Below, piece by piece: positions 60-47,794 of a DNA stretch of 62,665 nucleotides. How positions within the stretch are numbered: the stretch's first letter is position 1; each line of letters opens with the position of its first letter. This stretch comes from Bacteroidota bacterium (lineage in GTDB: Bacteria > Bacteroidota > Bacteroidia > Chitinophagales > Saprospiraceae): positions 1 to 62,665 of the forward strand of contig JACRAN010000113.1 in assembly GCA_016234735.1 (NCBI GenBank). Reading direction: 5' to 3'. Made by a program: the position numbers and the translations under genes. The notes beneath the pieces were generated by a model. That model ran no database searches and was not told the origin of the DNA. It saw only the letters and a list, made by a program, of their open reading frames with translations.

Positions 60-2204
60 TCAATCCACCAGCCGCCACGACACCCCGAACCGCACCCCGC
101 CGTTCTCGAATCCGAACGGCAACGGGTAGCTGGCCGTCTGGTAAAAATAGGTCTGCATCGGGTAGGCCAGCAGGTTTTCGATTTTGAAAAAGAAGCGGAA
201 CGTTTTCACTTTGAAACTCAGGAACGCATCGAGCAGGGGCGTGAACGGCAGCGCCTGTGCGGTTTGCAATTGGAACTGGCCGGTGAGCGGCTGGTACGTC
301 GGCGGCGTGTAGGCCGAGGCGAGCCGTGCATCCACCCCGATTTTCGTGAGCATCACTTTTTTGAAAATCTTGCCTTCGAGGTAGAGGCTGTGCTTCGAGT
401 ACAACTGCGGCAGGGGCAGCACATCGGAAGTCGTTTGCTGCAAGCCCGCCCAGTTTTCGAGGTGCAGCGGGCCGAGGTGGAAATCCTTGCGCACCGTCAG
501 TTGCAGGATGCTGAAAGCGCCGCTTTGTCGGGGCCGACCAGCGGAGTCGAAATAGACGAGGTTGCTCAAAAGATGGTACTGCCCGCCCGCGGAAAAATGG
601 ATTTGCGGCAGCGAGTAGGTGCCTGACAGGCTGGTTTCCAGCGTTTTATCAAAACTGTTTTTCCAAATTTCTTTTTGGGTCACGTAAAAACGGTTGTGCA
701 GCAGCGAGGTCGAGTAGAGTTGGTTGACCACGTCGAGGCGCAGGTTCCCGATTTTTTTCAAGTTCAAAAACAACTCCCCGCTCAGGCGGAAATCGCCCGC
801 ATTGGCCCCCACGCCGAGGTGTGCGTAGCTCTGGATGCGCAGCCGCTCGCCGGGCGAAAAGTTGAGCCGGGCGGTGAGGAACAGGTGGTGGATGGCCGAC
901 GTGTCCACTGGTTCCTGCTGCACGAAGTGGATGGAATGCACCAGCCCCACTTCCAGCAGGTCGCTCTCCGCCGACAGCGCCCGGCCCGTGGCATCGCTGG
1001 CGGTCTGCGGTTTCAGTTTGAAGGTTTGCAGCTTGAAGGTGTTCTCCAATTTTTTGGTTTCCAACAGGTGCCGCAGGCCCCGTCTGTCCACTAAGAAATC
1101 GCCGTAAAAAGCGGAGTCCGGCGAGGTGTCCGAAAACTTGTAACTCGCTGACTGCCAGGCGATTTGGTGGTAAACTGTGAAAGAACGGGAAGGGTTGAAG
1201 GATTGGGGGATTGAAGGATTGGGGGCTTGCGATTTCGGATTTCGGATTTCGGATTTCGGATTGGGGAGTGAATCAACTTGCGGGGGACTTGGAGATTGGA
1301 CACTCAATGAATCTTGTAAGTTGACTGGCCCCGACTGCCCACCCCGAAGGGGTAAACTGTCCACTGCCGAACTGCCAACTTTCTTCCGTCCGCCGTTCAG
1401 GTAAAAATACTGCGTGTACGCCAGCTCCCGGTTGGCGTAGCGGGTGTTGGCGCTGCTCAACTGCACGTCCACCTGGAAGGCCGGGATGAGGCCGAGGGTC
1501 AGGTCTTCGGCGGCACCGCCGTTGTTTTCCTGCTCTGCGGCGTTGCCCACGTAGCTGAAATAGCCGTCGTACCTGCCGTTTTTTTGGTGAAACCAAAGCC
1601 CCGCCGCCACAGCGGAGTTGGCGGCTTTTTGGAAATCGTAGGCCCCGGTGTTGCTGATTCGGCGGTGTTCGAGGGAGAGGTTCAGCCCATTGGCGAAGTT
1701 GCGGCTGAACTGGAGGTTGAAAAGCGCATCGCCCTGTGTCGGCCCCTGCGAGTAGCCCGCCTGCGTGTATGCCTGCGTGATTTTGTAGTAGCGCACGTCG
1801 GCGGTCGTGAGTTGGTAGAGGTCGAACTGGTGCAGCCCCACGTCGAAGCCACGCCGCCAGGCCGGTTGGAAAAACAGCGGGCGGCTGGCCGAGCCGAGGT
1901 TGCCGAGGCTGGCGAAATCGTACGCCTGCTGCCGGATGGGGTCGTACTGGTGCAGGTTGCCCAGCAGGCTGTCGCTGAACGGGAAAACCTGGTTAGGCTG
2001 GTCGGCGTAGAAAAAATAGATGTCAGAAGTGTCGAGGGTCAGGTTGCCGTTGCCACCACCACGGGCGCTGCCACTGCCGGGGAAACCGCCTGTGCCGCCT
2101 CCTGCACCGCCGCCGAACAGGCTTCCGCCGGGGCGCTGGGCGTAGGTTTTTTCAGCAGATAAAACACTGATAACCAGCAGTATGTAGCATAGAAACTGCC
2201 TCAT
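60..2204 (-). CDS. Putative outer-membrane porin, Bacteroidetes type
   Basis: This 714-residue exported protein starts at the ATG at 2204, because that start gives a clean signal peptide (MRQFLCYILLVISVLSAEKTYAQ); an upstream in-frame ATG would add 19 unconvincing residues. After a Gly-rich stretch, the chain is full of alternating aromatic and polar segments (FDVGLHQFDLYQL, LNLSLEHRRIS, GGYW-like turns) and ends in an aromatic strand (GGVRFGVSWRLVD), as expected of a beta barrel. It resembles the Bacteroidetes 'putative porin' family; the substrate is unknown. A low-complexity insert at about residues 275-335, rich in Pro, Ser and Asn, contains translated CCGAAAT array (positions 1231-1262) and presumably sits in a surface loop. 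The barrel class is inferred from pattern, not from a search. Confidence 0.75.
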   Translation of the reverse strand: MRQFLCYILLVISVLSAEKTYAQRPGGSLFGGGAGGGTGGFPGSGSARGGGNGNLTLDTSDIYFFYADQPNQVFPFSDSLLGNLHQYDPIRQQAYDFASLGNLGSASRPLFFQPAWRRGFDVGLHQFDLYQLTTADVRYYKITQAYTQAGYSQGPTQGDALFNLQFSRNFANGLNLSLEHRRISNTGAYDFQKAANSAVAAGLWFHQKNGRYDGYFSYVGNAAEQENNGGAAEDLTLGLIPAFQVDVQLSSANTRYANRELAYTQYFYLNGGRKKVGSSAVDSLPLRGGQSGPVNLQDSLSVQSPSPPQVDSLPNPKSEIRNPKSQAPNPSIPQSFNPSRSFTVYHQIAWQSASYKFSDTSPDSAFYGDFLVDRRGLRHLLETKKLENTFKLQTFKLKPQTASDATGRALSAESDLLEVGLVHSIHFVQQEPVDTSAIHHLFLTARLNFSPGERLRIQSYAHLGVGANAGDFRLSGELFLNLKKIGNLRLDVVNQLYSTSLLHNRFYVTQKEIWKNSFDKTLETSLSGTYSLPQIHFSAGGQYHLLSNLVYFDSAGRPRQSGAFSILQLTVRKDFHLGPLHLENWAGLQQTTSDVLPLPQLYSKHSLYLEGKIFKKVMLTKIGVDARLASAYTPPTYQPLTGQFQLQTAQALPFTPLLDAFLSFKVKTFRFFFKIENLLAYPMQTYFYQTASYPLPFGFENGGVRFGVSWRLVD
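1190..1262. repeat. Period-7 array inside the porin gene
   Basis: Positions 1231-1262 are four copies of GATTTCG plus GATT. They are preceded by a degenerate GGATTGA/GGATTGG stretch with the same 7-bp spacing (about 1195-1230). Read on the gene strand, it gives NPKSEIRNPKS followed by a Pro/Ser/Asn-rich stretch, in frame with the porin. Confidence 0.9.
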
Positions 2205-2314
2205 TGAAATGGTTTGTTTGCAGCAAAATAACGGTGTTGAAATGGGTTTTGCGGGAAGCATTTGCTAAAATTTAACCGATGCCATTTGTCCCGTGTCGGA
2301 ATGACCACTATTTT

Positions 2315-2755
2315 TCATTTTTTAATCTTCTGCCCATTTTTGCCTGCGGCTGTTATCAAAGCATCCAAGAATTTTGTTTTTAGGTCTGTCGGTACAGAAG
2401 TTGCCAATATTTTGTCGTAAATCTCTTGCAAATCAAAGCCGTCGTGAACTGGATTTTCAATTTCAGTGAAAAGAATCTTGTTGTCCACTTGTCGCTTTGC
2501 AATTACTTGAAAAAATATTGCCGGTGCTTTGTCGAGCACCTTGAAAAGTGTCTCGTTGCTCCATTCGGAATATTCCAAATTAGTATTGCAGGAACTGTCA
2601 AAGGTGCATAAAAAGTCGTCTACAATTTGAAAAGTCAGACTGTCCAAATGGTCGATAACTATTTTCACTTTGTCAATATCGCATTTGTCGCACGAAGTAT
2701 TGGCAAACGCTGTCGTGAAGGTTAAAAACGTAAATAAGGTTAAAAATTCTTTCAT
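2315..2755 (-). CDS. Small secreted protein of unknown function
   Basis: This is a 146-residue protein with an N-terminal signal peptide (MKEFLTLFTFLTFTTAFA, cleavage before NTSCDKC). The mature part has a CDKCD motif and two further cysteines (FLCTFDSSCN), which suggests disulfides in the periplasm or outside the cell. The rest is mostly helical and acidic/lysine-rich with no motif I recognise. The gene is clearly more AT-rich than the porin and methyltransferase on either side, which may mean recent acquisition. It lies alone, 53 bp from the upstream end of the porin gene. Confidence 0.6.
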   Translation of the reverse strand: MKEFLTLFTFLTFTTAFANTSCDKCDIDKVKIVIDHLDSLTFQIVDDFLCTFDSSCNTNLEYSEWSNETLFKVLDKAPAIFFQVIAKRQVDNKILFTEIENPVHDGFDLQEIYDKILATSVPTDLKTKFLDALITAAGKNGQKIKK

Positions 2756-2813
2756 AAATCTCTGTTCATCAATAGTTGTGAGTCATTTTTAGCATGACAT
2801 GCAACGTGAAATT

Positions 2814-5130: not shown

Positions 5131-7227
5131 TCAAGCGCCTTTCGCAGCCTGTCGCCCCAGTTCCCGCCACCCCTTCCACACCACCTCCAAATCCCGCCCC
5201 GGTTCGTAATCTTTGGCATAGAAAAAATCGAGCCGCCGGGCGGTGGCCTCGTCGAGTTGCCTGCCGGGGAAGGCATCGGCGGGGGAGAGGATGCCGGGGC
5301 GGACGGGGGGGATTTCGGATTTCGGATTTCGGATTTCGGATTGAGTGCTGGAATAGCCGACCCACGATTTTTTTCCGATAAAAACCAGCACCAGGTTTCT
5401 CAAAAATCCCCCCGGTTTTTTCACCAAAAACAACAGCGGAACGGCCAACAACAAAAAGCCAACAGCCAACAGCAAATCCAGCAGCCGCTTGCTGCGCCGG
5501 GCCATCGGGCTGGCGATTTTGTAGCGGACTGAGGTGGTGTAAAGTTCTCCCGAAGCGTCCTTCGAACTGCTGCCGATGATGGTCTGGCTGCCCTCCGGCA
5601 CCGTTTTGAACTCGATGCGGGGGCCGAGCCGCTCCATCCAATGCATTGTCTGTGAGGCAGTTGCGTCTTTCAGGCAGAAGATGATTTCGTCCAGGTGGTA
5701 CAGCGCAGCGATTTCGTCCAGTGGCTGGATTTCGGATTTCGGATTTCGGATTTCGGAGCCAGGCCCGTCCGAAATCCGAAATCCGAAATCCGAAATCGGG
5801 ATGGCTGTTCCGATAAAATTTCGCTCCACTCCCGCCTTCGCCAGCAACTGCTGCACCCGCTCACTTTCAAGTTGCGACCCAACGATGGCGAGGTTGGCCG
5901 GGCGGGTGCGGCCCACGCTGAGGTTGCCCGTTTTAAAAAAATGAAAAACCAGCCGCAGCGCCGCCAGCGCCAACAGCGCCCAGGCCGTGCCGAGCAGGAT
6001 GACCGCCCTCGACGGGCGCAGGTCAAGCGGCAGGAAACCGTACACCGCCGAGATGACGACCGTGCCGAGCAGCAGCCCACGGGTGAGGCGGCGCAGGTTG
6101 AAAGGCTCGTCGTAGCCGCCGCTGAAGAACAGCGCCGCCAGCCACAGCAGCGTGTAAAACGGCGCATTGAAATACAAAAAAGTAGGCTTGAACCACGCAG
6201 GGTCGTGGTAAAAATAGTTGGCCCAAAAGGTCTTCGACAGCCACAGTCCGCTGAATATCAGCACCGCATCAAGCACAGGGAGTTGGCTTTTTTTGAAAAA
6301 ATTGCCGAGCAGCGTCAAGCCTGCCCGCAGCCAGATGGCCCCGTAGATCATGGCGACGAAGAGCGACGCCTGTCGCCCGGTGAAGTGCTTCCGGGCAAAG
6401 ATGATCATGGCCTGGTAAAACGTGCGGACGTAGTTGAGGCTCCCCTTTTTCGTGCTTACGCCATTGTAGTGGATGATGGTGGTGTCGGAGAAGTAGTAGT
6501 TTTTGTAGCCAGCCTGCACGATGCGGTAGCTCAGGTCAATGTCCTCGCCGTACATGAAAAACGCCTCGTCGAGCAGGCCGATTTTGTCCAAAACGGAGCG
6601 GCGCAGCAGCATGAACGCCCCGGCCAGCACGTCCACCTCGTGGGTCTCGTTTTTGTCGAGGTAGCCGAGGTGGTAGCGCCCGAAGGTTTTCGATTTGGGG
6701 AAAATAGCCGCCAGTCCAAATGTCTTGCAGAACGCCACCCACGGCGAGGGGAACCCCCGTTTGCTTTCGGGCAAGAACTGTCCGCTGCCGTCCATCATCT
6801 TCACGCCCAGCCCGCCCGCCTCCGGGTGCGTTTCCATGAACTCGACGCACTTGGTCAGCGTGTCCTCCCGCACGATGGTGTCTGGGTTCAGCAGCAGGAC
6901 GTAGGGATTTCGGATTTCGGATTTCGGATTTCGGATTTCGGGTTTCGGGTTTCGGATTTCGGGTTTCGGGTTTCGGATTTCGGATGCTCGGATTGCCTGA
7001 TTGTTCGCTACCGCAAAGCCTGTGTTTTGTTGGTTGGCGATGAGTTTTACTTCGGGGAAATGGGTGCGCACCATCTGTACGCTGTCGTCGGAGGAGGCGT
7101 TGTCCACAACCCAGACGGCCTCCCCCCAGCCCCCTCCCAAGGAGGGGGAGTAGGCACGTCGGACGCTCAGGAGGCATTGCTCCAGAAAGTGTCGGACGTT
7201 GTAGTTGACGATGATGGTGGTGAGCAT
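5131..7227 (-). CDS. Family 2 glycosyltransferase fused to a sugar-transferase-like membrane domain
   Basis: This is a 698-residue membrane protein. Residues 1-about 285 are a GT2 catalytic domain like rhamnosyltransferases: MLTTIIVNYNVRHFLEQCL, VVDNASSDDSV, NTGFAVANNQ, the donor/metal loop LLLNPDT, and EDIDLSYRI with the general-base region. A hydrophobic middle follows (about 290-430), then a Rossmann-like stretch (NLAIVGSQLESERVQQLL), and then a segment resembling the entry of polyprenyl-phosphate sugar transferases (MARRSKRLLDLLLAVGFLLLAVPLLFLV). The usual catalytic part of the latter is short or degenerate. Three period-7 arrays interrupt the frame, at residues 81-108, 477-500 and about 629-640; the first falls exactly between the helix and the LLLNPDT strand of the GT2 fold. 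It starts 6 bp after ptuB, so it may share that transcript. A role in surface polysaccharide or glycolipid synthesis is inferred. Confidence 0.8.
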   Translation of the reverse strand: MLTTIIVNYNVRHFLEQCLLSVRRAYSPSLGGGWGEAVWVVDNASSDDSVQMVRTHFPEVKLIANQQNTGFAVANNQAIRASEIRNPKPEIRNPKPEIRNPKSEIRNPYVLLLNPDTIVREDTLTKCVEFMETHPEAGGLGVKMMDGSGQFLPESKRGFPSPWVAFCKTFGLAAIFPKSKTFGRYHLGYLDKNETHEVDVLAGAFMLLRRSVLDKIGLLDEAFFMYGEDIDLSYRIVQAGYKNYYFSDTTIIHYNGVSTKKGSLNYVRTFYQAMIIFARKHFTGRQASLFVAMIYGAIWLRAGLTLLGNFFKKSQLPVLDAVLIFSGLWLSKTFWANYFYHDPAWFKPTFLYFNAPFYTLLWLAALFFSGGYDEPFNLRRLTRGLLLGTVVISAVYGFLPLDLRPSRAVILLGTAWALLALAALRLVFHFFKTGNLSVGRTRPANLAIVGSQLESERVQQLLAKAGVERNFIGTAIPISDFGFRISDGPGSEIRNPKSEIQPLDEIAALYHLDEIIFCLKDATASQTMHWMERLGPRIEFKTVPEGSQTIIGSSSKDASGELYTTSVRYKIASPMARRSKRLLDLLLAVGFLLLAVPLLFLVKKPGGFLRNLVLVFIGKKSWVGYSSTQSEIRNPKSEIPPVRPGILSPADAFPGRQLDEATARRLDFFYAKDYEPGRDLEVVWKGWRELGRQAAKGA
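5311..5342. repeat. Period-7 array (GATTTCG)n, third array of the glycosyltransferase gene
   Basis: Four perfect GATTTCG units are followed by GATT. It encodes SEIRNPKSEI near residue 630 of the glycosyltransferase. Confidence 0.9.
5728..5797. repeat. Perfect 29-bp inverted pair of period-7 arrays
   Basis: 5728-5756 is (GATTTCG)x4 plus G, and 5769-5797 is its exact reverse complement, with a 12-nt spacer (AGCCAGGCCCGT). The pair lies inside the glycosyltransferase reading frame and would form a 29-bp stem in both DNA and mRNA. Confidence 0.95.
6906..6985. repeat. 80-bp period-7 array with GATTTCG and GGTTTCG units
   Basis: About 11 units are seen: GATTTCG, with four units changed to GGTTTCG. 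It encodes repeated NPKSEIR/NPKPEIR peptides between the NNQ helix and the LLLNPDT strand of the glycosyltransferase. Confidence 0.95.
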
Positions 7228-10652: not shown

Positions 10653-10783
10653 TAATTTTGCACCGCTTTTTAAAAACCAAAAACGGTGTATTCCATTTTG
10701 AGAAGCGAAATTATCTCATTTTTGCGAAGTTTAACCCCCGACCTCCGAAACTCACTAACTCGAAACTCGAAACTCAAAACTGA
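10653..10783. promoter_or_regulatory. recR/pdhC divergent region with a -7 box and an AACTCGA array
   Basis: TAATTTTG at 10653-10660 fits the Bacteroidota -7 element for the plus strand (pdhC), but no TTG lies at the right distance. 10745-10783 is a degenerate period-7 array (AACTCAC, TAACTCG, AACTCGA, AACTCAA) ending 4 bp before the pdhC start. Confidence 0.45.
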
Positions 10784-12251: not shown

Positions 12252-12333
12252 GCGGGTGTGGCGAAACTGGTAGACGCGCCAGACTTAGGATCTGGTGCCG
12301 CAAGGCTTGGGGGTTCGAGTCCCTTCACCCGCA
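12252..12333 (+). tRNA. tRNA-Leu (anticodon UAG)
   Basis: This is an 82-nt tRNA. The acceptor stem GCGGGTG (12252-12258) pairs with CACCCGC (12326-12332), with discriminator A. The anticodon stem is CCAGA/TCTGG around the loop CTTAGGA, which gives anticodon TAG and reads CUA and related Leu codons. The long variable arm (TGCCGCAAGGCTT) is typical of class II tRNA-Leu, and the T loop is GGTTCGAGTC. CCA is not encoded. A period-7 hairpin begins 20 bp downstream. Confidence 0.96.
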
Positions 12334-12352
12334 CGTTTTTTGGAGTTATGGG

Positions 12353-12428
12353 TTGAAAGTTATGAGTTATGAGTTGAACATCATCCAACGGTCTTTTCAA
12401 CTCATAACTCATAACTCATAACTTTCAA
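12353..12428. repeat. Inverted pair of GAGTTAT/ATAACTC period-7 arrays
   Basis: The left arm 12353-12378 and right arm 12396-12428 are reverse complements, except that the right arm carries exactly one extra 7-bp unit (33 versus 26 nt). It sits between tRNA-Leu and tig. Confidence 0.95.
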
Positions 12429-16112: not shown

Positions 16113-16889
16113 ATGCGCTATTTTTCCGAACTCGCCTACCTCGGCACCAAGTACAACGGCTGGCAAAAACAGCCGTACTCGCCTTCCGTGCAGCAAACCA
16201 TCGAGCAGGCGTTCTCGACCATCCTCGGCACGGCCATCGAAGTGACCGGCTGTGGCCGCACCGACACCGGCGTACACGCCAGCCAATATTTCATGCACTT
16301 CGATTTTGAGGGAAAATTTCCGAAGGAATTTCTGCGCCGCATCAACAAACTGCTGCCTCCCGACGTGGCCATCCGCTCCGTTTTCGAGGTGGCCCCCGAT
16401 GCCCACGCCCGTTTCGATGCCGTGCGGCGCAGCTACGAGTACCGCATCGTTCTGGAGAAAAATCCTTTCCAGTCCGGCACGGCGTGGCATTTCCCTTTTT
16501 TTGAAAAATTGGATGTTGAAAAAACGCAGCAAGCGGCCGCCCTCCTGCTCCGCTACGAAGAATTTCAGCCCTTCTGCAAAAGCCACACCGATGCAAAAAC
16601 GATGAGTTGCGCCCTGACCCGCTCCGAGTGGGTGCTGGACGAAGCCGCCAAAAGCATGGTATTCCACATCTCTGCCGACCGCTTCCTGCGGGGCATGGTG
16701 CGCCTGATAGTCGGCATGTGCCTGAATGTCGGGTTGGGAAAAGTCGAACTTGACGAAGTACGGGAAGCCCTCGACCGTCAGATTTTACTGAAAAAAAGCT
16801 GGAGCGTACCGCCAGAGGGGCTGTTCCTGACTGAAGTAGTGTACCAGTTGGCAGTTGGCAGACGGCAAACGGCAGTCACCGAAATCTGA
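16113..16889 (+). CDS. truA: tRNA pseudouridine(38-40) synthase
   Basis: This is a 258-residue enzyme; the start at 16113 (MRYFSELAYLGTKYNGWQKQ) fits the family N-terminus. The catalytic Asp is in TGCGRTDTGVHASQ. RRINKLLPPDVAI and RFDAVRRSYEYRI are conserved RNA-binding stretches, and FLRGMVRLIVG is the C-terminal core. It isomerises uridines in the tRNA anticodon arm. The last dozen residues (QLAVGRRQTAVTEI) are encoded by a period-7 array and are not part of the family fold; the stop codon itself lies in the array. Confidence 0.94.
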   Translation: MRYFSELAYLGTKYNGWQKQPYSPSVQQTIEQAFSTILGTAIEVTGCGRTDTGVHASQYFMHFDFEGKFPKEFLRRINKLLPPDVAIRSVFEVAPDAHARFDAVRRSYEYRIVLEKNPFQSGTAWHFPFFEKLDVEKTQQAAALLLRYEEFQPFCKSHTDAKTMSCALTRSEWVLDEAAKSMVFHISADRFLRGMVRLIVGMCLNVGLGKVELDEVREALDRQILLKKSWSVPPEGLFLTEVVYQLAVGRRQTAVTEI

Positions 16890-16915
16890 CATCCGAAATC
16901 CGACATCGAGAATCA
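16845..16915. repeat. Mixed period-7 array at the truA 3' end
   Basis: Units CAGTTGG, CAGTTGG, CAGACGG, CAAACGG are followed by CGAAATC, TGACATC, CGAAATC, CGACATC, GAGAATC. The phase of 7 is kept although the unit changes from the GGCAGTT family to the CCGAAAT family. Confidence 0.85.
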
Positions 16916-17224: not shown

Positions 17225-17229
17225 GTTGA

Positions 17230-17312
17230 GTTTGTGATTGGTGATTAGTGATTTGAGATTGGGACAAAAGTAGCAATTCACGCCCCCAATCGTCCGTCGT
17301 AAATCGAAAATC
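17230..17312. repeat. GTGATTG / AATCGTC period-7 arrays upstream of ybaB
   Basis: 17234-17261 holds GTGATTG, GTGATTA, GTGATTT, GAGATTG. 17285-17312 holds AATCGTC, CGTCGTA, AATCGAA, AATCGTC. These are two facing degenerate arrays around the putative ybaB -7 box. Confidence 0.7.
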
Positions 17313-18101: not shown

Positions 18102-18208
18102 AGATTTTAGATTTTAGACAAGAGACTTTAGAATGACAACTTTCGTAAAGCGTTGAAAGTCAGCAAGAAATGACGGTCTAACATCTAAAGTCTCTTGTCT
18201 AACATCTC
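18102..18208. repeat. Inverted pair of GATTTTA/GACTTTA period-7 arrays
   Basis: 18102-18132 and 18177-18208 are inverted copies over about 24 nt (core TTAGACAAGAGACTTTAGA), with about 45 nt between. They lie between the two DinB genes. Confidence 0.85.
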
Positions 18209-18810: not shown

Positions 18811-19170
18811 ATGCAAAACTACCTCTTCGTTTTTCTCGGCGGCGGCCTCGGCAGCATCTGCCGGTTCGGCATCGGGCACTGGCTGACGGCCTACCGGCTG
18901 TCGTTCCCCTGGGCCACTTTTCTGGCCAACGTGCTGGCCTGCCTCGTGCTGGGGGCGCTCGTCAGCCTGAGCATGAAGGGCCGGCTCGGCGGCCCGGCCA
19001 GTGTTTTCCTGATGGCCGGTTTTTGCGGCGGGTTCAGCACATTTTCCACCTTCACCAACGAGACTTTCCAGATGCTCCTCGCCGGGCAGTGGTGGAAGGC
19101 CACCGCCTACATGGTAGCCAGCCTGCTCGTTTGCATCGGGTCGCTCTACGTCGGGATGAAAGCGGTTTGA
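18811..19170 (+). CDS. crcB: Fluoride ion channel CrcB/FluC
   Basis: This is a 119-residue membrane protein with four hydrophobic segments, the usual Fluc length. Signature elements are GGGLGSICRFGIGHW at the N-terminus, TFLANVLACLVLGAL with the conserved Asn, and GFCGGFSTFSTFTNET with the Phe/Thr/Ser pore residues. It forms a dual-topology dimer that exports fluoride. Its stop codon is the first base triplet of a period-7 hairpin. Confidence 0.93.
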   Translation: MQNYLFVFLGGGLGSICRFGIGHWLTAYRLSFPWATFLANVLACLVLGALVSLSMKGRLGGPASVFLMAGFCGGFSTFSTFTNETFQMLLAGQWWKATAYMVASLLVCIGSLYVGMKAV

Positions 19171-19244
19171 TTTACGATTTACGAGTGACGATTTACGATT
19201 GGGGAGTCTGCGGAATCGTAAATCGTCATTCGTAAATCGTAAAT
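19170..19244. repeat. ATTTACG period-7 inverted pair between crcB and the M4 protease
   Basis: 19170-19200 and 19214-19244 are reverse complements over 31 nt with one mismatch, separated by 13 nt. The arms touch the stop codons of the two convergent genes. The arm sequence is nearly identical to the arm at 36554-36584. Confidence 0.95.
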
Positions 19245-22200
19245 TATTTCTTCACAAACTTCAATGCCGCCTGCCCCTCTGCCATGCTGATGCGGAGGAA
19301 ATACTGCCCGCCGTTCAGCCCGTCGGTGGGGAAGCGGTGGTGGTTTTCACCTGCCCCGGCGCTGATTTTTTCGCTCAAAACCAGCCTGCCCACGAGGTCG
19401 AAGACCTGCACCTGTACATCCCCGGCTTTTTTGGTGGAGAAATCGAGGCTCAACTGCCCGCTGCCCACGGGGTTCGGGTAGAGCCGGATGTTGTTTTCCG
19501 AAATCAAATCCTGCGCACCGAGCACCCGGTCGCCGTTGGCGAACCACACCCCCCAACGGCCTGCATTGAGGTAAACCGAAGCGTTGCCGGTCGGGGTGAT
19601 TTTGTCGTTTTCGACCGAAGCAAACGCCAGCACAGGCATCCCGTTCGTGTCGTCCGCATCAAAAACGAGGCGGCTGTCGTCGGTGGAGTAGCTGGGCCAG
19701 GTGAGGTCGTTGCTCTGGAAAATGGTGCCCACATCGCCCGTTTCGATGTTGGCACCGAGCAGGTAGTATTCGTCATTGAACTCGTCGAAGTAGTCGAAAG
19801 CGATGATGTAGTCGGAGTTTTTGGAAAAAGTCGGGTCGCCCACGCTCACGTTTTCCGGCAGGCTGCTGAACAGTTTTTCGATGTAGCCGTCCCCAAAATC
19901 GTTGCCGCCCCAGACGTAAATGAAGCCGATGTCCCAGTATTCGATGTCCTGCCCGGTGGTGTTGATTTTGCTGAGGGCATCGTACATCACCCACTGGCCG
20001 GTGAAGTCCCATTCGAGCACGTCGGCGTACACCACGTTGTCGCTGGCCGGGCCGCCCTGTGCAGTGGTCGGGTTGAACAGTTCAAAGTCCTGCCAGGTTT
20101 GGATGCCGAAGTCATAAATCCAGATGCGGTTGTCGTTGTCGGTGGTGAGGGCGGCGAGGCGGCTGCCGTCTTTCGAGATGGCCACGTTCGTCCAGATGGC
20201 ATCGGGGTGGATGACCTGGTTGTTGGTGGTGCCGCTGCTCCAGTTGATGGTGATGGCCCTCATCCTGTTGCTGTCGTCGATGTACACGAGCAGGCTGCCG
20301 TTGTCGGTGACGCTGGGGCGGCTCAACGGCGCAATGGAAGTCAGCGGGTTGGAGATTTCCACCCCGTCCGGCGTGAAAATGTAGAGCGCCGAGTAGTCGG
20401 AGTCCGACAGCAGGATGTACTCGTCGCCGGGGTTGGTGTCGATGTCCGTCTGGTTGTTCGAGCCACTGCCGGCACCGATTCCCACGGCATCGAAGGCGGC
20501 TTTGGCAGCGTTCACCTCGGCGGAGTTGGCCCCGTGCAGGTCGGTAGCGGCCTGGATGACGGCGTTGCGGCAGTCCACGAAATTGGAGGACTTCGTCAGG
20601 TACAGGGTGAGGGCACGGTAGTAAACCTGCTCGGCTTTGTTCTTGCCCACGCTCCCGTTGTTTGCGAAGAGAAAAAACGCTTTGTTCGCAATGCCGCTGT
20701 TGATGTGTACGCCGCCGTTGTCCTCGCTGCCGAGGTAGCGCTCGGAGTAGTGGGCAGGCTGCCAGCCGTTGTCGTTGAGGCTGCCGCCTCCGTTGTGCGG
20801 GTTGCTGAGGTCGCGCAGGGCACCGGTCGGAAAAAAAGCGGAATTGGTCACGTCTTCGCCCATTTGCCAGTCGTCCCGGTCTATCATCGCCCCGAAAACG
20901 TCGGCGAAACTCTCGTTCAGCGCACCGCTCTCGCCGAGGTATTCGAGGTTGGCAGTTTCCTGGATCACGCCATGCGACATCTCGTGCCCGGACACATCGA
21001 GCGCCTTTTGGAGCGGGGCCGTGAACCCCTGGTTGCCGTTGCCGTAGAACATGGCCGCCCCGTTCCAGAAGGCATTGTCCATTTGGCTGTTGTCGCTCTC
21101 CACCACGTTGATGAGCGACACGATGTTGCCGCCCTGCCCGTTGATGCTGTTGCGGTTGAAGGTGTTTTTAAAATAATCGAACGCCTTCTCGGCGTGGTAA
21201 TGGGCGCTCACGGCCTTCGGGTTGTTCCAGACGTTGTTGCCGGAAGTGACGTGGACGGCCCCGAAGTCGGTGTTTTCAGGAGAGGTATTCTGTGCGTCGA
21301 TGGTCCAGATGGTGCCCACCGGCTCGTCAGGAAAGGTTGACTGGGCGTTGTTGAACATCGTTTGCGAAGCGTCAATCAGGAAATAATTGCTCCCCACTTG
21401 GTACGTGTTGATGAGCCTCGATTGCCCGAACAGGTCGTTGGCGGTGGCGGTGGCGGGACCGTCGGGGGGCGGCGGTGGCATTTCGGATTTCGGATTTCGG
21501 ATTTCGGAAAAAGCAGGCTCTTCCGCAATCCGCAATCCGCAATCCGAAATATGAACGTGCCCTGCAATCTGGCAAAGTTCGCTGTGGTGGTTGAGGATTT
21601 CGCCGGTTTTCGCATCCACGAAATAGCTGTACCGGGCAGTGATGTTCGGCACTACCGTCACGTGCCAGGCGAGGTGCGGTTTGTTTTTTTCGGGGTAAAA
21701 AATGACCGGCTCGGCCTGCGTCTGGGGTGCGTTGCTGACCAATTTCAACTCCGCCGGGGTCAGGTTTTTGACGGTTTCAAAACCGCCCACGTGCGTGAGG
21801 GCGATTTGACCTGCCGCCTCCGGCGAAACGGTCGGCACCACGTCCGCCAGTTTCGGCGAGGGGAAAAACCGCCCGTTGAACAGGTAAAATTCGCCGTCTT
21901 TTTTATGCAAAACGGCCTCCGCACCATGCACCGGCACACCCTGCCACTGCTGTTGCAGGCGGATGTGCGAGCAGCCGAGTTCGTCGTTTTCGATTTCTGA
22001 AACGACGAATTCCCCCGCCGGGTCATCCAATTTCAGCACGGATTGCACGGCAGCGAGGTAGTCCTGCAACTGCCCATCAAGGGACTTGGCGGCGTCCGCC
22101 GGGAGCTTGCCTTCGATGAGGTAGGGCGTTCCGGTTTCCGGCGAAATGCGCGCCCGGAGCGAGGGCTGGCCGCTCACCGGCTTAGGCAGGCTGGCGATGG

Positions 22201-22470: not shown

Positions 22471-22560
22471 GTTGGCGAGTGGGGGAGTTTTGAAGGATGG
22501 GTTTTGAGTTGGCGAGTGGTCTGAAACTCAATAACTCAAAACTCAATAACTCGAAACTTT
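22471..22560. repeat. AACTCAA/TAACTCG period-7 array region
   Basis: 22526-22560 holds units AACTCAA, TAACTCA, AAACTCA, ATAACTC. 22471-22520 has facing GAGTTGG/CGAGTGG units. It fills the gap between the protease and the lipoprotein gene. Confidence 0.75.
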
Positions 22561-25490: not shown

Positions 25491-28400
25491 ATGAAGAAGA
25501 AACTCAACTCAGTTTACGTATTGTTTTTTACGGCAGTGGCAGGCTATTTTTTTCTGTCGTACTCCGGCAACCCACCGAATGGCCACACAGGTGCGCCTCC
25601 TACCATGAACACCTGTGCCAGTTCGCAGGGGGGCTGCCATTCCGGTGGCACGGGCACGGGCAATATTTCGATTGCCGGTATGCCTTCCACCATTACCCCA
25701 AGCACTCTGTATCCTATTACCGTGACGGTTACCCGGACGAATGGTGTGCCGCAATTGGCTGGTTTTCAATTAGTTGTCCAGGATGCTTCCAACTCCAATT
25801 CCGGTATACTTGACAACCCAGGCCCTGGCTCCGACGTGGAGTTTGCCGGAGGGAAATACTGGTTCGAGCACTCCCCGGCACAGCCTTACACCGGGGATAT
25901 GGCCACCTTCACGGCATTCTGGACGTCACCTGCCTCCGGCTCCGGCAACATCACCATGTACGCAGCGGGCAACCTCGCCAACGGCAATGGCAACAACAGT
26001 GGTGATGCCATCGTAACCACCACGGCGGTCGGCTCGTTCAGCGGCGGCCCCGGCCCCATCACGGTCAACGTCAGCGGCACCAATGTCAGTTGTTTCGGCG
26101 GAAACAACGGCACCGCTACGGCCAGCGGCTCCGGCGGCGGCGGCGGGCCGTACACTTACAACTGGTCGAATGGCGGTTCAGGTCCAATGATTATCAACCT
26201 GACGACAGGCACCTACACCGTCTCCGTAACGAACGGAGCGGGGGGCAGTGGCACCGGCTCCATCACCATTACCCAGCCACCACAACTTACGGTGACGATT
26301 GTCAACCAAACCAACGTGACCTGCGCCGTCCCCCTCGGTTCGGCTACCGCCCAGGGCAGCGGCGGCACCGGCACCTTGACCTACTCCTGGTCAACCGGAG
26401 CTTCGGGCCCGACGGCCAGCCTGCCTGCCGGAACGCACACCGTCTCGGTGACCGATGCCAATTCGTGTGTGGCCACTACTTCCGTGACGATTTTATCCAA
26501 CACCACCCCGCCCACCGCCGAGGCCGGCCCGACCGCCCAAATCACCTGCACCACTCCCACGCCCACCTTGAACGGCACCGGTTCCTCTACCGGCGGGAAT
26601 TTTACTTACAACTGGACAACGGTCAATGGTGTGATTTTGAGCGGGGCCACCACCCTGATGCCCGTGGTAGCTGCCGCCGGTACCTACACCCTGACCGTGA
26701 CGAACCTCAATAACGGTTGCACTGCCTCCGACGCCACCACCGTCACCAACAACCTGACGGCCCCCACCTCCAACGCCGGGGCGGACATGGGGCTTACCTG
26801 CACCATCACATCGCTTCTGTTGAACGGGTCGTCCTCCTCCAGCGGGCCGAATTTTACCTACCTCTGGACGACCACTGACGGCCATATCGTCAGCGGGGCC
26901 ACCACGCTCATGCCAACCGTGGACGAGCCGGGCACTTATTGCCTCAAGGTTACAAATACCACCAATGGCTGCACCGCTACCGACTGTGCGGGTGTCACTG
27001 AAAACGTCACGCCCCCGGTTTCCAATGCCGGGACGGACGGTGTGCTGACATGTGCCAATACCTCCATCCAACTGAACGGGTCGTCCTCTTCCAGCGGGCC
27101 GAATTTCACCTACCTCTGGACCACCGCCGACGGCAACATTGTCAGCGGAGCCACCACGCCCATGCCAACAGTGGATGAACCCGGCACCTACTGTCTGAAA
27201 GTGACCAACACCACGAATGGCTGCACCGCTACCGATTGTGCGGGTGTCACTGAGAACGTCACACCCCCGCTTGCCAATGCCGGCAGTGCGCCGCCGCTGA
27301 CCTGTACCACCACCAGCGTTACGCTCAATGGTTCGGCTTCGTCGCAAGGCCCCAATTTCACCTACCTCTGGACGACCGTCAACGGGAACATCGTCAGTGG
27401 TGCCACCACGACGATGCCGGTGGTCAATGTGGCTGCCGTTTATACCCTCACCGTCACCAATGCCACCAACGGCTGCACGGCATCTTCGAGCGTCACCGTG
27501 ACTTCCAACACCACGCCGCCTGCCGCAGATGCAGGCCCCGGCATGGCGCTCAACTGCAACAATACATCCGTGGTGCTGGACGGCTCCGGCTCCTCGCAGG
27601 GGCCGAATTTCACCTACCTGTGGAACGGCCCAGGCATCCAGTCGGGCGGAGACACCCCCAACCCGACCGTGAACGAGGCAGGTACGTACACGATTTTGGT
27701 AACGAACACCGGCAACGGCTGCACTGGCACTGACAACACCATCGTCACGCAGACGCCTGTGCTCAACGCCACCATTTCACCGTTTCAAAATGTAACCTGC
27801 AACGGTGGCAATGATGGAAGTGCGACCGCAGTTGGCAGCGGCGGCACTGGGCCGTACAGTTTTTCATGGTCAAATGGCGGGAACACTGCCCAAATCAACA
27901 ACCTCTCCGCAGGCACTTACACCCTGACCCTCACGGACGAAGATGACTGCACGGCCACAGCCAGCGTGGACATCACACAGCCGCCCATCCTCAACGCCAA
28001 TGCTTCTGCCACTGGCGAAACCTCTGTTGGGGCAGGGGATGGCACTGCGACTGCCAACCCGTCCGGTGGAGTGCCCGGCTACACCTACGCCTGGAGCAAC
28101 GGAGAAACCACCCAAACCATCACCGGCCTCACCGCCGGGAACTACACCGTCGTCGTCACCGATGCCAACGGCTGCACTTCGGCGCAGACCGTCACGGTCA
28201 CCAGTTTCAATTGTGTTGGTTTTGGTGTGAGCATGGCTTCCACGAACCCAAGTTGCAACGGCAGCTCCGACGGAACAGCGACGGCAACAGTCGCAGGCGG
28301 CACCGGACCGTACACGTTCCTTTGGTCAAATGGCCAGACCACAGCCACCGCTACCGGCCTTGCCGCAGGCAGCTACACCGTCAGCGCCACCGACGACAAC

Positions 28401-30335
28401 GGCTGCGAAGCCACTGGCAACGTCACACTGACAGCCCCGGCGGCGCTGAACCTCACCGTTCAGCAAACGAACGTTGCCTGCCACGGCGAAGCAACCGGCA
28501 CAGCGTCTGTTGACGTGACCGGCGGTACGGCAGGTTACGATTTCGACTGGTCGAACGGTGCTTCCGGTGCTTCGCAAACCGACCTTGCCGCTGGCAGCTA
28601 CACCGTCTCCGTGACGGATGCCAACGGCTGCACGGCTTCCGTGCAGGTCAATATTTCCGAACCTCCTGCCCTCACGGGCAATGTCACGGCGGCGGGCGAA
28701 TCTGCCGTCGGGGCCAATGACGGCACGGCCACGGCGGCCATGTCGGGCGGCGTGGCACCTTACAGTTTCGAGTGGAGCAACGGGGCCACCACCTCCACCA
28801 TCAACGGCCTCGCCCCCGGACAGTACTGCGCCTCCGTGACGGATGCCAACGGCTGCACGTTCACAGGCTGCGCAACCGTTGCACAGTTTGGTTGTGTTGG
28901 TATTAGCACCTCGATTTCCGGTGAAAATGTTACCTGCTTCGGTAGCAATGATGGTGCTGCGCAATTGACGGTTTCCGGCTTCTCCGACCCGCTCACGGTC
29001 GAGTGGTCGAACGGCGCAACGGGCACTTCGGTGGGCAGCCTCACGGCTGGTGTTTACTCGGTGAGCGTCACAGATGCCAACAGCTGCACGGCGGTGGATG
29101 AAACTGAAATCACCCAACCAACGGAGTTGGCGGTTGAATTTTTGACCCAAACCAACGTCGATTGCCCCGGTACGAACACCGGCTCAATTTCAGTGGACGG
29201 TTCCGGCGGTACGCCCGGCTACGCTTTCTCGTGGTCGAACGGTGCCACAACCCCGACCATCGGCAACCTCGCAGCGGGCACTTACGAAGTGTCCATCAGC
29301 GACGAAAACGACTGCACGGCTTCGATGGGTTTTGAAATCGAAGTGCTGCCCGACAACGAGGCCCCGGTTGCGCTGGCCGCCAACCTGACCGTCACGCTCG
29401 ATGCCACCGGCTCGGCGACGATTACCCCGGCGATGGTGGACGGCGGCAGCACCGACAACTGCGGCATCGCCTCGATGACGCTGGATGTCAGCGATTTTAC
29501 CTGTGCCGATGTGGGCGAAAACACTGTGACTCTGACCGTGCAGGACGCTGCCGGAAACACTTCGACGGCCACTGCCACCGTGACGGTGGTGAGCAACCTT
29601 TCGGCTATCATCGCCCAGATGCCAGCGGTCTGCCACGGTGAGGCGACCGGCTCTGCCACAGCCCTCCCGACCGGCGGCACTCCACCGTACAGCTACCAGT
29701 GGGACGACCCGGCCAGCCAGACCACGCAGACTGCCGTCAACCTCGCAGCGGGCACGTACAGCGTGCTCGTCACCGATGCGGCGGGCTGCACGACCACCGA
29801 AATGGCGCTCATTACTGAACCCGCCACTGCCCTGACCATCAACGTTGACGATGTGACGCATACCATTGCCGGGCAACCGGACGGTGCCATCTCCGTGACC
29901 GCCGGCGGCGGTGCCGGGGGGTACTCGTACCAGTGGTTTTACAACGGTGCATTTTTTTCCGACCAGGAGGACATCTCCGACCTGCTGGATGGGGAGTACG
30001 TGCTGCAAGTGACCGACCAGGCAGGCTGCGTGACCGAAGTGACAGTGGAAGTGTTGGGCGAAGATGCCACCGTGGAGAAGGAGTTGGAGCGCAACATCAC
30101 GTTGGCCCCGAACCCCACGTCCGGGCGGCTTTTCCTGCGCTTCGACCTGTCGCAGCCCGCCGCCGTCCGCTACCAGGTTTTCGACCTCACGGGCCGCCCG
30201 GCACTGCCGGAGCAGTCCGGTACTTCCGCCAAAACAACGGAACTCGACCTGGCAGGCATTGCGCCCGGCGTTTATTTGCTCCGGGTCATCGTGGGCGAGG
30301 CGGTGGTGGTGAAGCGGTTTGTGGTGGGGAGGTGA
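25491..30335 (+). CDS. Giant SprB-repeat surface protein with T9SS sorting tail
   Basis: This is a 1614-residue protein; the start at 25491 gives a signal (MKKKLNSVYVLFFTAVAGYFFLSYS). The N-terminus (GNPPNGHTGAPP..., CASSQGGCHSGG) matches the Reeler-like 'choice-of-anchor V' domain. The body is a string of Ig-like repeats. About ten are SprB repeats of the form NVxCxGxNDGxA ... GGTGPYxFxWSNG ... LxAGxYTVxVTDANGCT. Five in the middle are PKD-like (SNAGxDxxLTC ... GPNFTYLWTT), two of them nearly identical in tandem. One is HYR-like (about 1280-1370). The last 80 residues are a sorting tail (LAPNPTSGRLFLRFDL). SprB repeats occur in gliding adhesins of flavobacteria. A role in adhesion or gliding is inference. 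Confidence 0.9.
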   Translation: MKKKLNSVYVLFFTAVAGYFFLSYSGNPPNGHTGAPPTMNTCASSQGGCHSGGTGTGNISIAGMPSTITPSTLYPITVTVTRTNGVPQLAGFQLVVQDASNSNSGILDNPGPGSDVEFAGGKYWFEHSPAQPYTGDMATFTAFWTSPASGSGNITMYAAGNLANGNGNNSGDAIVTTTAVGSFSGGPGPITVNVSGTNVSCFGGNNGTATASGSGGGGGPYTYNWSNGGSGPMIINLTTGTYTVSVTNGAGGSGTGSITITQPPQLTVTIVNQTNVTCAVPLGSATAQGSGGTGTLTYSWSTGASGPTASLPAGTHTVSVTDANSCVATTSVTILSNTTPPTAEAGPTAQITCTTPTPTLNGTGSSTGGNFTYNWTTVNGVILSGATTLMPVVAAAGTYTLTVTNLNNGCTASDATTVTNNLTAPTSNAGADMGLTCTITSLLLNGSSSSSGPNFTYLWTTTDGHIVSGATTLMPTVDEPGTYCLKVTNTTNGCTATDCAGVTENVTPPVSNAGTDGVLTCANTSIQLNGSSSSSGPNFTYLWTTADGNIVSGATTPMPTVDEPGTYCLKVTNTTNGCTATDCAGVTENVTPPLANAGSAPPLTCTTTSVTLNGSASSQGPNFTYLWTTVNGNIVSGATTTMPVVNVAAVYTLTVTNATNGCTASSSVTVTSNTTPPAADAGPGMALNCNNTSVVLDGSGSSQGPNFTYLWNGPGIQSGGDTPNPTVNEAGTYTILVTNTGNGCTGTDNTIVTQTPVLNATISPFQNVTCNGGNDGSATAVGSGGTGPYSFSWSNGGNTAQINNLSAGTYTLTLTDEDDCTATASVDITQPPILNANASATGETSVGAGDGTATANPSGGVPGYTYAWSNGETTQTITGLTAGNYTVVVTDANGCTSAQTVTVTSFNCVGFGVSMASTNPSCNGSSDGTATATVAGGTGPYTFLWSNGQTTATATGLAAGSYTVSATDDNGCEATGNVTLTAPAALNLTVQQTNVACHGEATGTASVDVTGGTAGYDFDWSNGASGASQTDLAAGSYTVSVTDANGCTASVQVNISEPPALTGNVTAAGESAVGANDGTATAAMSGGVAPYSFEWSNGATTSTINGLAPGQYCASVTDANGCTFTGCATVAQFGCVGISTSISGENVTCFGSNDGAAQLTVSGFSDPLTVEWSNGATGTSVGSLTAGVYSVSVTDANSCTAVDETEITQPTELAVEFLTQTNVDCPGTNTGSISVDGSGGTPGYAFSWSNGATTPTIGNLAAGTYEVSISDENDCTASMGFEIEVLPDNEAPVALAANLTVTLDATGSATITPAMVDGGSTDNCGIASMTLDVSDFTCADVGENTVTLTVQDAAGNTSTATATVTVVSNLSAIIAQMPAVCHGEATGSATALPTGGTPPYSYQWDDPASQTTQTAVNLAAGTYSVLVTDAAGCTTTEMALITEPATALTINVDDVTHTIAGQPDGAISVTAGGGAGGYSYQWFYNGAFFSDQEDISDLLDGEYVLQVTDQAGCVTEVTVEVLGEDATVEKELERNITLAPNPTSGRLFLRFDLSQPAAVRYQVFDLTGRPALPEQSGTSAKTTELDLAGIAPGVYLLRVIVGEAVVVKRFVVGR

Positions 30336-30417
30336 GCGAGCGAGCGGGTGAGAAATTGAGAGGTGAGAAAGTGAGATTGAATTTCAGCGTTTTAAATTCA
30401 AATCACTTTCTCAAAAC
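30332..30417. repeat. GTGAGAA-type hairpin, copy without palindrome
   Basis: The left arm 30365-30384 (GAGAAAGTGAGATTGAATTT) and right arm 30394-30412 are inverted repeats. The core from 30365 to 30412 is nearly identical to 41066-41132, except that it lacks the 19-bp palindrome-containing insert found there. Confidence 0.9.
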
Positions 30418-32481: not shown

Positions 32482-32515
32482 AAATCCGAAATCCGAAATC
32501 CCCAATCCGAAATCA
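32482..32515. repeat. Short CCGAAAT array between uppS and bamA
   Basis: Units AAATCCG, AAATCCG, AAATCCC, CAATCCG, AAATC with one slip. Single orientation. Confidence 0.85.
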
Positions 32516-36550: not shown

Positions 36551-36553
36551 CGG

Positions 36554-36661
36554 ATTTACGATTTACGAATGACGATTTACGATTGGTTGGTTCGGAAAAA
36601 ATTGGTTGTAAATTCTTTGAGAATTCCAGCACTCGTAAATCGTCATTCGTAAATCGTAAAT
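36554..36661. repeat. ATTTACG period-7 inverted pair, second copy
   Basis: 36554-36584 and 36633-36661 are perfect reverse complements over 29 nt with a 48-nt spacer. The arm is the same as at 19170-19200 apart from one base, whereas the spacer is unrelated. Confidence 0.95.
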
Positions 36662-38655: not shown

Positions 38656-38722
38656 AACTGCCAACTGCCAACTGCCAACTGCCAACTGCCAACTGCCAAC
38701 TGCCAACCGCCAACCGCCAACC
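38656..38722. repeat. AACTGCC period-7 array next to the hexosaminidase stop
   Basis: Seven perfect AACTGCC units, two AACCGCC units and AACC follow one another, ending directly before the stop codon of the hexosaminidase gene. The unit is free of stop codons in all six frames. Confidence 0.95.
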
Positions 38723-41040: not shown

Positions 41041-41140
41041 TTATAGATGTGAGAAGTGAGAGGATGAGAAAGTGAGATTGCCCGATAGCTATCGGGATGA
41101 ATTTCAGTATTTTAAATTCAAATCACTTTCTCAAAGCAAC
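41041..41140. repeat. GTGAGAA-type hairpin, copy carrying the palindrome
   Basis: The same element as at 30332-30417: left arm from 41066, right arm AAATTCAAATCACTTTCTC at 41114-41132. Positions 41081-41099 are extra and contain CCCGATAGCTATCGGG (41081-41096), flanked by a TG dinucleotide on both sides. Confidence 0.93.
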
Positions 41141-46600: not shown

Positions 46601-47331
46601 GCGAGGGCGATGAGCGCAGCGATTTCGATAATGCCCTGATTTTCAGCACCAAAGACATCGAACTGGTTGCCGGTCACGTGTATGCCATCCCCTTCGTGGC
46701 GCACCCGGAACGCGACGTGGCCGGTTTCCAGTTCACACTCGATTTTGACGAAAACGCCCTCGAATTCGTGGCGGTGGATGCCGAAACGCCGGGCTTGCTC
46801 AAGGCCAGCAACTTCGGCCTGCCAACGGCCATCGGCACCAGCGCCCTGACGGTGAGTTGGGCGAACGCAGGCAGCCAGCGGTTGACGGAAGACGGGGCGG
46901 TTTTCGCCTTGAAGTTTTCGTCAAAAATAAATGGACGGCTCTCGGAAGTGCTGGCCATCAATTCGTTGCGCACGGCAGCCGAGGCTTACGCCGGTGATTT
47001 TTCTTCCAAAAACGGAGGCTTTGAAACCTGGGGCGTACAGCTTGAATTTGAAAAAACGGTGGCCGATGCGCCCATGCTTTTCCAGAATTCGCCCAACCCC
47101 TTCCACGACAAAACAACTCTCCAATTCTATCTGCCCGAAGCTGCACAAGTCAGCTTCCGCCTCCACGACGCCTACGGCAGGCTGCTGAAAACCTGGAACG
47201 GGGCCTACGCCGAAGGCCACCACGAACTCCCGCTCGACTTGACCGGGCTTCATTACGCCACCGGCATTTTGTTCCTCGAAATGGACGACGGCAGTGCCCG
47301 GAGCACAGCAATCAGACTGATGAAAGTATAA
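43603..47331 (+). CDS. Secreted HYR-repeat protein with dockerin-like, cohesin-like and T9SS modules
   Basis: This is a 1242-residue exported protein. The start at 43603 gives the signal MFMIRTVLLTALFFLCGQTVFCQ and lies 6 bp after AGGAAGG. Several cysteine-rich HYR-type Ig repeats follow (DTTPPAITCPPGVSFTTYPNSC ... VPVGSYTVTYTAKDGCAN). A CNA-B/carboxypeptidase-regulatory-like domain follows near 825-875. A dockerin-like pair of Ca-binding helices (GVTTYDIVLVRRHIL, and AADVNRSGTVTTLDLVDMQKLIL near 906) is followed by GDVNNSA. A cohesin-like beta domain is at about 1017-1147 (VAGFQFTLDFDENALEF). The tail is FQNSPNPFHDKTTLQF ... It is a paralogue of the next gene (shared QCALVCN start and the same C-terminal order). 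Function in surface assembly is inferred. Confidence 0.88.
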   Translation: MFMIRTVLLTALFFLCGQTVFCQCALVCNNSITVALDANGTATIYPPMLLQSSVGCSNNFTITVEDTLGNQYGQPLGASLLGQPLTATLLHPASGNSCDVQVTLIDNLPPDMDCGEDSLFVWCNQPLDSLGWPDVSDNVSDSADIEVDFTDIFTDLPCYDSIENVPVTAYVERYWTATDESGNSSTCVQHIFLKRATLDLVEFPKHRDGVVLPALQCNVNDPTDLGITGQPMIDSMLLNNETSCELVVSFSDQQVPICGGARKIIRTWSVFDLCTEDFRVFSQIIRVIDTTPPAITCPPGVSFTTYPNSCTAQVYLPQATATDGCSGATVTPSWQFGNGNGPFNNVPVGSYTVTYTAKDGCANSSNCQITVKVKDEKKPVALCENSVQANLLDDGTTLIFAETFDNGSYDNCGIEHYEVSWGAQPFDTYVSFECANIGQSIPVTLRVVDAGGLSSTCTSTAIVKDLIKPEILCPAPETISCGQNYNNPAMTGLPFATDNCTVTATNYSNQINLNSCGNGTVLRTWTATDQSGNSASCQQMLTVADNTPITVTFPDDILTYECEPDTDLSATGEPVVTGKDCEQLQITHTDYYFYTAQPACFKVIRNWAVIDWCAYQPNDPDGVGFWEKTQVIEVRDSVAPVLICPENFTADIEVNACQTFVLMPVPIVEDCSDQVAITNSSPFANNSIGAASGVFPKGTHTVTYTAADGCGNTSSCTMQVTVVDAQAPNPICNNGVSVTIQQFGSVTVTPAMINYGSSDNCTPVQNLVLQVSPNTFDCQSLGSKTVMLTVTDEAGNSAFCQTTVVVQDNFNICSTQTTATIAGKLARENGDPLSQKLVGLSGGISIAVHTDVDGTYDFPSLPLGQDYTLTPSYNTKPLNGVTTYDIVLVRRHILGIDYFDSPYTIIAADVNRSGTVTTLDLVDMQKLILNIATEFPNGNPSWRFVPADYEFPNPAVPFSPAFPENISMDNIETNQWDRDFVGIKIGDVNNSANPSTFGEGEGDERSDFDNALIFSTKDIELVAGHVYAIPFVAHPERDVAGFQFTLDFDENALEFVAVDAETPGLLKASNFGLPTAIGTSALTVSWANAGSQRLTEDGAVFALKFSSKINGRLSEVLAINSLRTAAEAYAGDFSSKNGGFETWGVQLEFEKTVADAPMLFQNSPNPFHDKTTLQFYLPEAAQVSFRLHDAYGRLLKTWNGAYAEGHHELPLDLTGLHYATGILFLEMDDGSARSTAIRLMKV

Positions 47332-47409
47332 TTGAGAATTGAAAATTGAGAATTGAGAATGACCGTGGCGAGTACAATTCTCTATTGTCCATTTTTCATT
47401 CTCCATTGG
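47331..47409. repeat. ATTGAGA period-7 array with inverted partner
   Basis: 47331-47360 holds ATTGAGA, ATTGAAA, ATTGAGA, ATTGAGA. 47374-47409 holds facing units (AATTCTC, TATTGTC, CATTTTT, CATTCTC, CATTGG). The first array starts on the last base of the upstream stop codon. Confidence 0.85.
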
Positions 47410-47794
47410 AAAAAATACCCATGTTCATATCGACACGTCCGGTAGTGAATCTGCGATTCTATAGCCAGTTCGACATTCACTTTGACCATTTTACACACAC
47501 ACACATTTTTTAACCGGGCTGTTGCAAATCCGGTAACCATCAAAAGGTCTGATACTATGAGAAAACGTCCCATGAACTTTTGAAAGGTACCAACAACCTT
47601 GGACCTGGCGGAGGGGAGACAGCTACCAACCTGCGTAGCACCCCCTTCGCCCGGGTTCGGTTGAAATGCAGAAAATTAGAAACTAAAATACTGATAATCA
47701 AATGTTTAAAAAGAGCAAGCGACAAAAAGGAAGCACTGAACAATCAACTATCGACCATTCACAATCAATCTATCATTCACAATTTTAGTATCCC
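47332..47794 (+). other. 463-bp intergenic region between the two HYR genes
   Basis: It begins with a period-7 inverted pair (47331-47409), then a 9-codon ORF at 47557-47583 (MRKRPMNF) with the same ATACTATGAGAAAA context as upstream of the first HYR gene, then a hairpin GCTACCAACCTGCGTAGC (47620-47637). It ends in a degenerate array of CAATCAA/CTATCGA/CCATTCA units (47738-47790). No gene supported. Confidence 0.5.

Follow-up and report, generated by a model that had tools for sequence, protein, structure and literature searches.

The contig analysed here (the window, 62,665 nucleotides) comes from a Saprospiraceae genome, G000 (4.88 Mb in 359 contigs, 99% complete, examined as sampled stretches), in which arrays of many different 7-bp units stand side by side. 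We propose that these arrays derive, as copies, from a DNA element that disperses through the genome and has two inverted arms, an architecture like that of REPINs, and a putative mover acting in trans, a reading to which we assign a probability of about 0.5. The commonest units in G000 are AAATCCG, AAATCGT, and AACTCAT.

Arrays in the window were checked with Tandem Repeats Finder and against the raw sequence. A first-pass annotation of this DNA had listed 7-bp arrays at many places, and the periodicity is present at every one of them, weakly at 18102 and 16845 and as a mixture of 7- and 8-bp steps at 22526, 30332, and 41041. The arrays are as follows (coordinates, strand where one was assigned, description).

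1231..1262, plus strand: GATTTCG array of four units and a further GATT, located within a porin gene (minus strand, 60-2261) and in its frame
5310..5342, plus strand: GATTTCG array at site 3 of the glycosyltransferase gene
5727..5797: GATTTCG arms as an inverted pair with a 10-nt loop, at site 2 of the glycosyltransferase gene
6905..6994, plus strand: long mosaic array of GATTTCG and GGTTTCG at site 1 of the glycosyltransferase gene, a site that is empty in seven sister species
10757..10781, plus strand: AACTCGA array immediately ahead of an E2 acyltransferase gene; the position is exact here and was earlier given as 10745
12343..12423: inverted pair of GAGTTAT arms ahead of the trigger factor gene; AAAACTC-type stems in sister species
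16845..16907: short CAGTTGG array (2.4 copies), then an AAATCCG/ACATCCG array
17226..17262, plus strand: imperfect GTGATTG array
18102..18118, plus strand: GATTTTA array, weak at 2.4 copies
19169..19244: inverted pair of GATTTAC arms between convergent genes; the sister species G001 has a period-8 hairpin at that place
21480..21550: inverted pair of a GATTTCG arm and a GATTGCG arm, located in frame within an M4 peptidase gene
22524..22558, plus strand: AACTCAA array in which 7- and 8-bp steps alternate
30347..30376, plus strand: GTGAGAA array in which 7- and 8-bp steps alternate
32482..32514, minus strand: AAATCCG array
36553..36661: inverted pair that includes the mosaic arm GATTTACGATTTACGAATGACGATTTACGA, located between convergent genes
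38656..38722, plus strand: AACTGCC array, 9.4 copies
41049..41077, plus strand: GTGAGAA array in which 7- and 8-bp steps alternate
47330..47407: AATTGAG array and an imperfect inverted partner, past a gene end

A tRNA gene (window positions 12252-12333) directly adjoins the GAGTTAT hairpin, and an Rfam search of the window returned tRNA only. Positions 25491-30335 of the window hold a large gene for an SprB-repeat surface protein, whose internal repeats are 252 bp long and which has a type 9 secretion tail.

Among exact runs of at least 12 matches in the window, 14 had period 7 and every other period from 3 to 13 had 0-1 each, whereas order-3 Markov controls of the window (n = 20) gave 0.0 period-7 runs. 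Similarly, 122 kb of G000 taken without array-based choice (the window together with L003-L011, the source of our unbiased figures for this genome) contained 25 arrays of period 7, 3 of period 8, 2 of period 6, and 0-1 for each remaining period within 4-12. Note that L012-L022 and L073-L092 were chosen by AAATCCG matches, so that unit shares and densities are inflated there. The view that seven is the common period thus stands for G000, where no other period is as frequent; in some sister species (G004, G008, and G010) periods 7 and 8 are about equally common among the arrays, and period 8 is a real second class. Nor are the arrays confined to the segment first inspected, since GATTTCG has 100 exact 21-mer matches across G000 and its reversed control has 0.

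When we counted periods across phyla at loci from a ClpX scan of named genomes, the period-7 excess was clear in Cyanobacteria (25 arrays in 97 kb, compared with at most 2 for any other period), slight at the Bacteroidota loci of this set, and absent from 988 kb from other phyla. By ClpX, the nearest relatives fall in Saprospiraceae. The likeness to cyanobacterial heptanucleotide repeats suggested by the first-pass annotation was therefore a fair one. A degenerate core pattern at 7-bp steps, run over 248 Bacteroidota genomes with the reversed pattern as control, matched at tens of places in many of them, most clearly in G332 (152 matches to 0 for the control), G401 (127 to 0), and G217 (55 to 5); in some genomes the reversed control was equally high, and the core-pattern count there is uninformative. 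Period-7 arrays are genome-wide and genus-wide, and they recur in many Bacteroidota and in Cyanobacteria.

The arrays of G000 are limited in size. Their lengths form a hump at 27-33 bp with no decay, and their core counts are 63 arrays with 4 cores, 39 with 5, and 4 with 6. In most of the sister species that carry other units the median array length is likewise near 30 bp, and in G217 counts derived from whole-genome window counts were about 28 arrays of 4 cores, 37 of 5, and 7 of at least 6. Some other genomes have long arrays of more than 6 cores, so the core cap is not universal. Moreover, the arrays have a fixed phase: in 64 of 70 AAATCCG arrays the start lies at GATTTCG or is shifted from it by one base (p = 1.5e-20).

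To compare adjacent units, the phase was set from the consensus unit alone. The mismatch rate between neighbours was 25% for the last spacer base and 17% for the first base, against 8-9% for the A, third, and T positions, and this variation is position-specific both in G000 (p = 2.7e-26) and in its genus (p = 2.0e-12). Spacer positions are thus about three times more variable than core positions, which is not what tandem copying of identical units would give; a core, [AC]A[ACT]T(C), is retained every 7 bp and the spacer varies. (Most units had earlier been written as AA[A/C/T]T plus three bases, which comes close to this rule.) In G217 and G347, which belong to other families, arrays frequently do not consist of tandem copies at all, as in AAATCCG AAATCAG AAATCTT AAATCTC AAAT. 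Note that the search in G217 and G347 itself demanded the core, and that the mismatch statistics free of such selection are those of G000 and its genus.

Close neighbouring arrays are inverted in 40 cases and direct in 2. The claim that the arrays occur mostly as inverted pairs therefore holds for close neighbours but not for the arrays at large, of which the paired ones are a large minority (24 close inverted pairs among 111 arrays of at least 4 cores). The polarity of the pairs is uniform in 34 of 34 neighbouring pairs of arrays of at least 4 cores (G000, its genus, G217, and G347): the C-rich strand cores face outward, the 5' arm is G-rich and the 3' arm C-rich, gaps are mostly below 45 nt, and the G-rich strand of each pair reads 5' to 3' toward the junction. 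This law is established for three families only; among Cyanobacteria and the array-rich genomes G259 to G421, neighbours are of mixed polarity. The predicted stems of the pairs are strong (fold z-scores of -4 to -9), and between copies the arms are nearly identical and the loops close to unrelated. That size, core rule, and polarity are alike for different units supports a shared underlying process, as the first-pass annotation had suspected. Arm similarity to the own partner was no greater than to arms at other loci; with partners barely more alike than the arms of other loci, copying of one arm from the other by fold-back was rejected as the general origin of pairs, and in G217 and G347 it is also countered by spacers that differ between the arms of one pair.

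Many of the arrays lie inside genes. In the unselected 122 kb, 15 of 25 arrays are in frame inside genes, and in 624 kb of G000 (a sample partly chosen for arrays) 87 of 163 are inside predicted genes. Array density per kb is several times lower inside genes than between them, and is highest between convergent and lowest between divergent genes; the low densities in genes and between divergent genes are as expected from indiscriminate insertion followed by selection. At tandem genes array orientation is unbiased (22 versus 22). A single 9.7-kb open reading frame of G000 (L013, G000:C16, 1-9700) stays intact with about 17 heptad arrays, built of several units, inside it.

Comparison of the same loci in relatives, which the first-pass annotation had called for, revealed that sites filled in G000 hold different units, or no array, in sister species, so that units turn over at orthologous positions. 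Arrays occupy three in-frame sites of the glycosyltransferase gene (5131-7227) and translate as SEIRNPK or ISDFGFR repeats. Site 1 is uninterrupted in seven sister species, carries AATCCGC in two, and holds CAGTCCN and CAGTTGG in one each, and each species' unit resembles the codons just upstream; sites 2 and 3 also differ between species. The M4 peptidase site holds an inverted heptad pair of AGTTGGC type in several sister species, a pair of AAATCCG type in G000, and nothing in four species. Likewise, the hairpin ahead of the trigger factor gene has GAGTTAT stems in G000 and GAGTTTT-type stems in two sister species. (Filled and empty sites were compared across species at about 60-80% protein identity, and yielded no clean single insertion event.) A protein tree makes G000 the sister to its six nearest species; this placement is compatible with either direction of change between such states, and the idea that the peptidase hairpin was rewritten in G000 was dropped for that reason. 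In G006, the M4 peptidase gene (L056, G006:C644, near 6711-6825) has an apparent frameshift at the array site, where both arms contain the same extra inserted sequence, either real or an assembly error. The glycosyltransferase gene has another variable site, a GC-rich palindromic insert, CTACTCCCCCTCCTTGGGAGGGGGCTGGGGGGAGG, in frame at about 7104-7155 of the window (minus strand); similar inserts in G009 and G002 make this a second family of in-frame palindromes.

One arm has been copied as a block. The 30-bp mosaic arm GATTTACGATTTACGAATGACGATTTACGA is present on 13 contigs of G000, which we counted as 12 unlinked sites because two matches have one common flank at contig ends. The flanks are unrelated, the sites lie both within and between genes, and the arm is absent from 149 other genomes of the family. 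No target-site duplication was seen by eye in array flanks, and when G000 was compared with itself, no clean pair of a filled and an empty paralogous copy emerged.

These observations bear on replication slippage with a 7-nt preference (attributed to Mrazek 2007), by which an array would grow locally from a chance seed. Long pure arrays (e.g., AACTGCC x9), the likeness of each species' unit at glycosyltransferase site 1 to the preceding codons, as if from a local seed, and the 7-nt-step indels reported between two Cyanothece strains (PMC4679880) are all consistent with slippage. However, under slippage whole units should be copied, lengths should decay, phase should be random, and mosaics should not recur. 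As the sole cause, slippage is contradicted by the length hump, the fixed phase, the restriction of variation to spacers, and the polarity, and most decisively by the identical mosaic at twelve sites, which independent slippage does not produce. We therefore consider slippage on a 7-bp ruler, one of the processes offered in the first-pass annotation, an improbable origin of the arrays. It is probably a secondary force, given the long pure arrays and the 7-nt steps between the Cyanothece strains.

The arrays might instead be fixed binding sites, that is, phased cores for an abundant DNA- or RNA-binding protein (in nucleoid structure, termination, or decay) that are kept by selection at each site without dispersal. 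Conserved cores with free spacers do resemble a binding array, and arrays are enriched between convergent genes, where hairpins would serve as two-way terminators. Nevertheless, in-frame copies within enzymes, the recurrence of the mosaic, spacers included, unchanged at 12 sites, and the lack of an orientation bias at tandem genes make this account unlikely.

The pairs share with REPINs (Bertels and Rainey 2011, PMC3116915) the hairpin of inverted doublets (here with one polarity in 34 of 34), the poorly conserved loops or spacers, the many copies dispersed within one genome, and the strong fold. REPINs proper are mobilised by a RAYT tyrosine transposase, and about 380 bp beyond the end of one RAYT-like gene of G000 lies an inverted heptad pair, a proximity within what array density predicts. 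In the flanks of RAYT-like genes of sister species, by contrast, there were 0 arrays in 38.8 kb where about 5 were expected. In another genus (25 species), Y1 genes are present in 6 of 6 array-rich species but also in 11 of 19 array-free ones. Thus, in the search for a co-occurring protein that the first-pass annotation had recommended, Y1 genes follow array content weakly, and mobilisation by RAYT/IS200 functions was rejected after Y1 genes had been considered in the genome, the genus, and the 25 species elsewhere. Moreover, unlike a REPIN, each G000 arm is an array of phased period-7 cores in place of a single palindrome, many copies lie in genes, and the GTAG/CGTC tag at the foot of the REPIN palindrome is absent, by eye, at the listed AAATCCG arm ends and the mosaic arm ends. 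That the arrays are REPINs in the strict sense is accordingly quite unlikely. Telomerase-like addition of terminal repeats at DNA breaks, with both ends joined later, would explain why the G-rich strand runs toward the junction in every pair, as after two end-additions, but is very improbable given that many different units coexist in one genome and that G000, although 99% complete, has no match to the reverse transcriptase family RVT_1 (PF00078), a result that also counts against the reverse-transcriptase-templated addition suggested earlier.

Heptamers are the commonest repeat class in many bacteria, for which a polymerase-based explanation of the 7-nt length has been offered (Mrazek 2007, as cited in PMC4679880), and TAACTGA arrays have been described in Beggiatoaceae, Cyanobacteria, and Bacteroidetes (MacGregor 2015, PMC4679880). 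The G000 arrays resemble these repeats, and cyanobacterial STRRs, in their period of 7, mostly intergenic place, phyla, and core AACT. Whereas TAACTGA- and STRR-type repeats are described as tandem fixed units, the G000 units are free except for the core, and the arms are capped, paired with fixed polarity, and copied as blocks. Measured against STRRs/LSSRs, the G000 arrays have the 7-bp period raised above other periods but not the open-ended copy number with decaying lengths, in view of the hump at 27-33 bp and the few arrays of more than 5 cores. The GGGNATC heptads of Xanthomonas and Nostoc, explained by G-quadruplexes (Rehm 2015, PMC4692102), also have period 7, a preference for four units, and few copies between divergent genes. 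A quadruplex takes four G-tracts of at least 3, however, and most G000 units have no GGG run (AAATCCG, AAATCGT, and AACTCAT have none on either strand); the cap holds regardless. Rickettsia palindromic elements are palindromic and stand in frame in conserved genes, are longer, have family-specific sequences, and are not known to have a 7-bp periodicity; as these elements are generally described, the G000 arrays are like them in their in-frame insertion in conserved genes. The heptamer excess is already published, whereas the core rule, the cap across units, the polarity, and the in-frame spread appear new in relation to open-access papers, in which we found no earlier statement of these features or of the spacing rule.

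Taken together, block copying, a rule at the level of the motif, and the fixed polarity suggest a dispersing element that is recognised through its phased cores. An arm of such an element would be a run of usually four or five cores, [AC]A[ACT]T(C), one per 7 bp and about 25-32 bp in all. The complete element would probably consist of two inverted arms that enclose a short loop and have their C-rich strand cores facing outward, and single arms would be partial copies or remnants. Arms would spread blockwise to unrelated sites of one genome, genic and intergenic alike, after which copies that break reading frames or promoters would be purged by selection. Spread would need machinery that recognises the phased cores or their hairpin, and we infer that a single trans-acting system may be the mover, with the cores as its recognition signal. 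More tentatively, the arrays could represent an unrecognised class of mobile DNA defined by spacing and not by sequence, with usually four or five weak cores per arm, two arms of fixed polarity, free spacers, and a putative protein machine that would read the cores and either copy or write arms at new sites.

Bacterial heptamer repeats have been reported piecemeal for years, with the mechanism taken no further than slippage. The spacing rule, the size cap, and the fixed polarity make them one testable object, and species of one genus with many or no arrays offer a direct route to the responsible gene. The arrays also indicate that many in-frame insertions in conserved proteins are tolerable for a bacterium. 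If the broader proposal is true, Bacteroidota would share with Cyanobacteria a spacing-defined class of mobile DNA, and heptamer repeats now known from separate reports would be unified under it.
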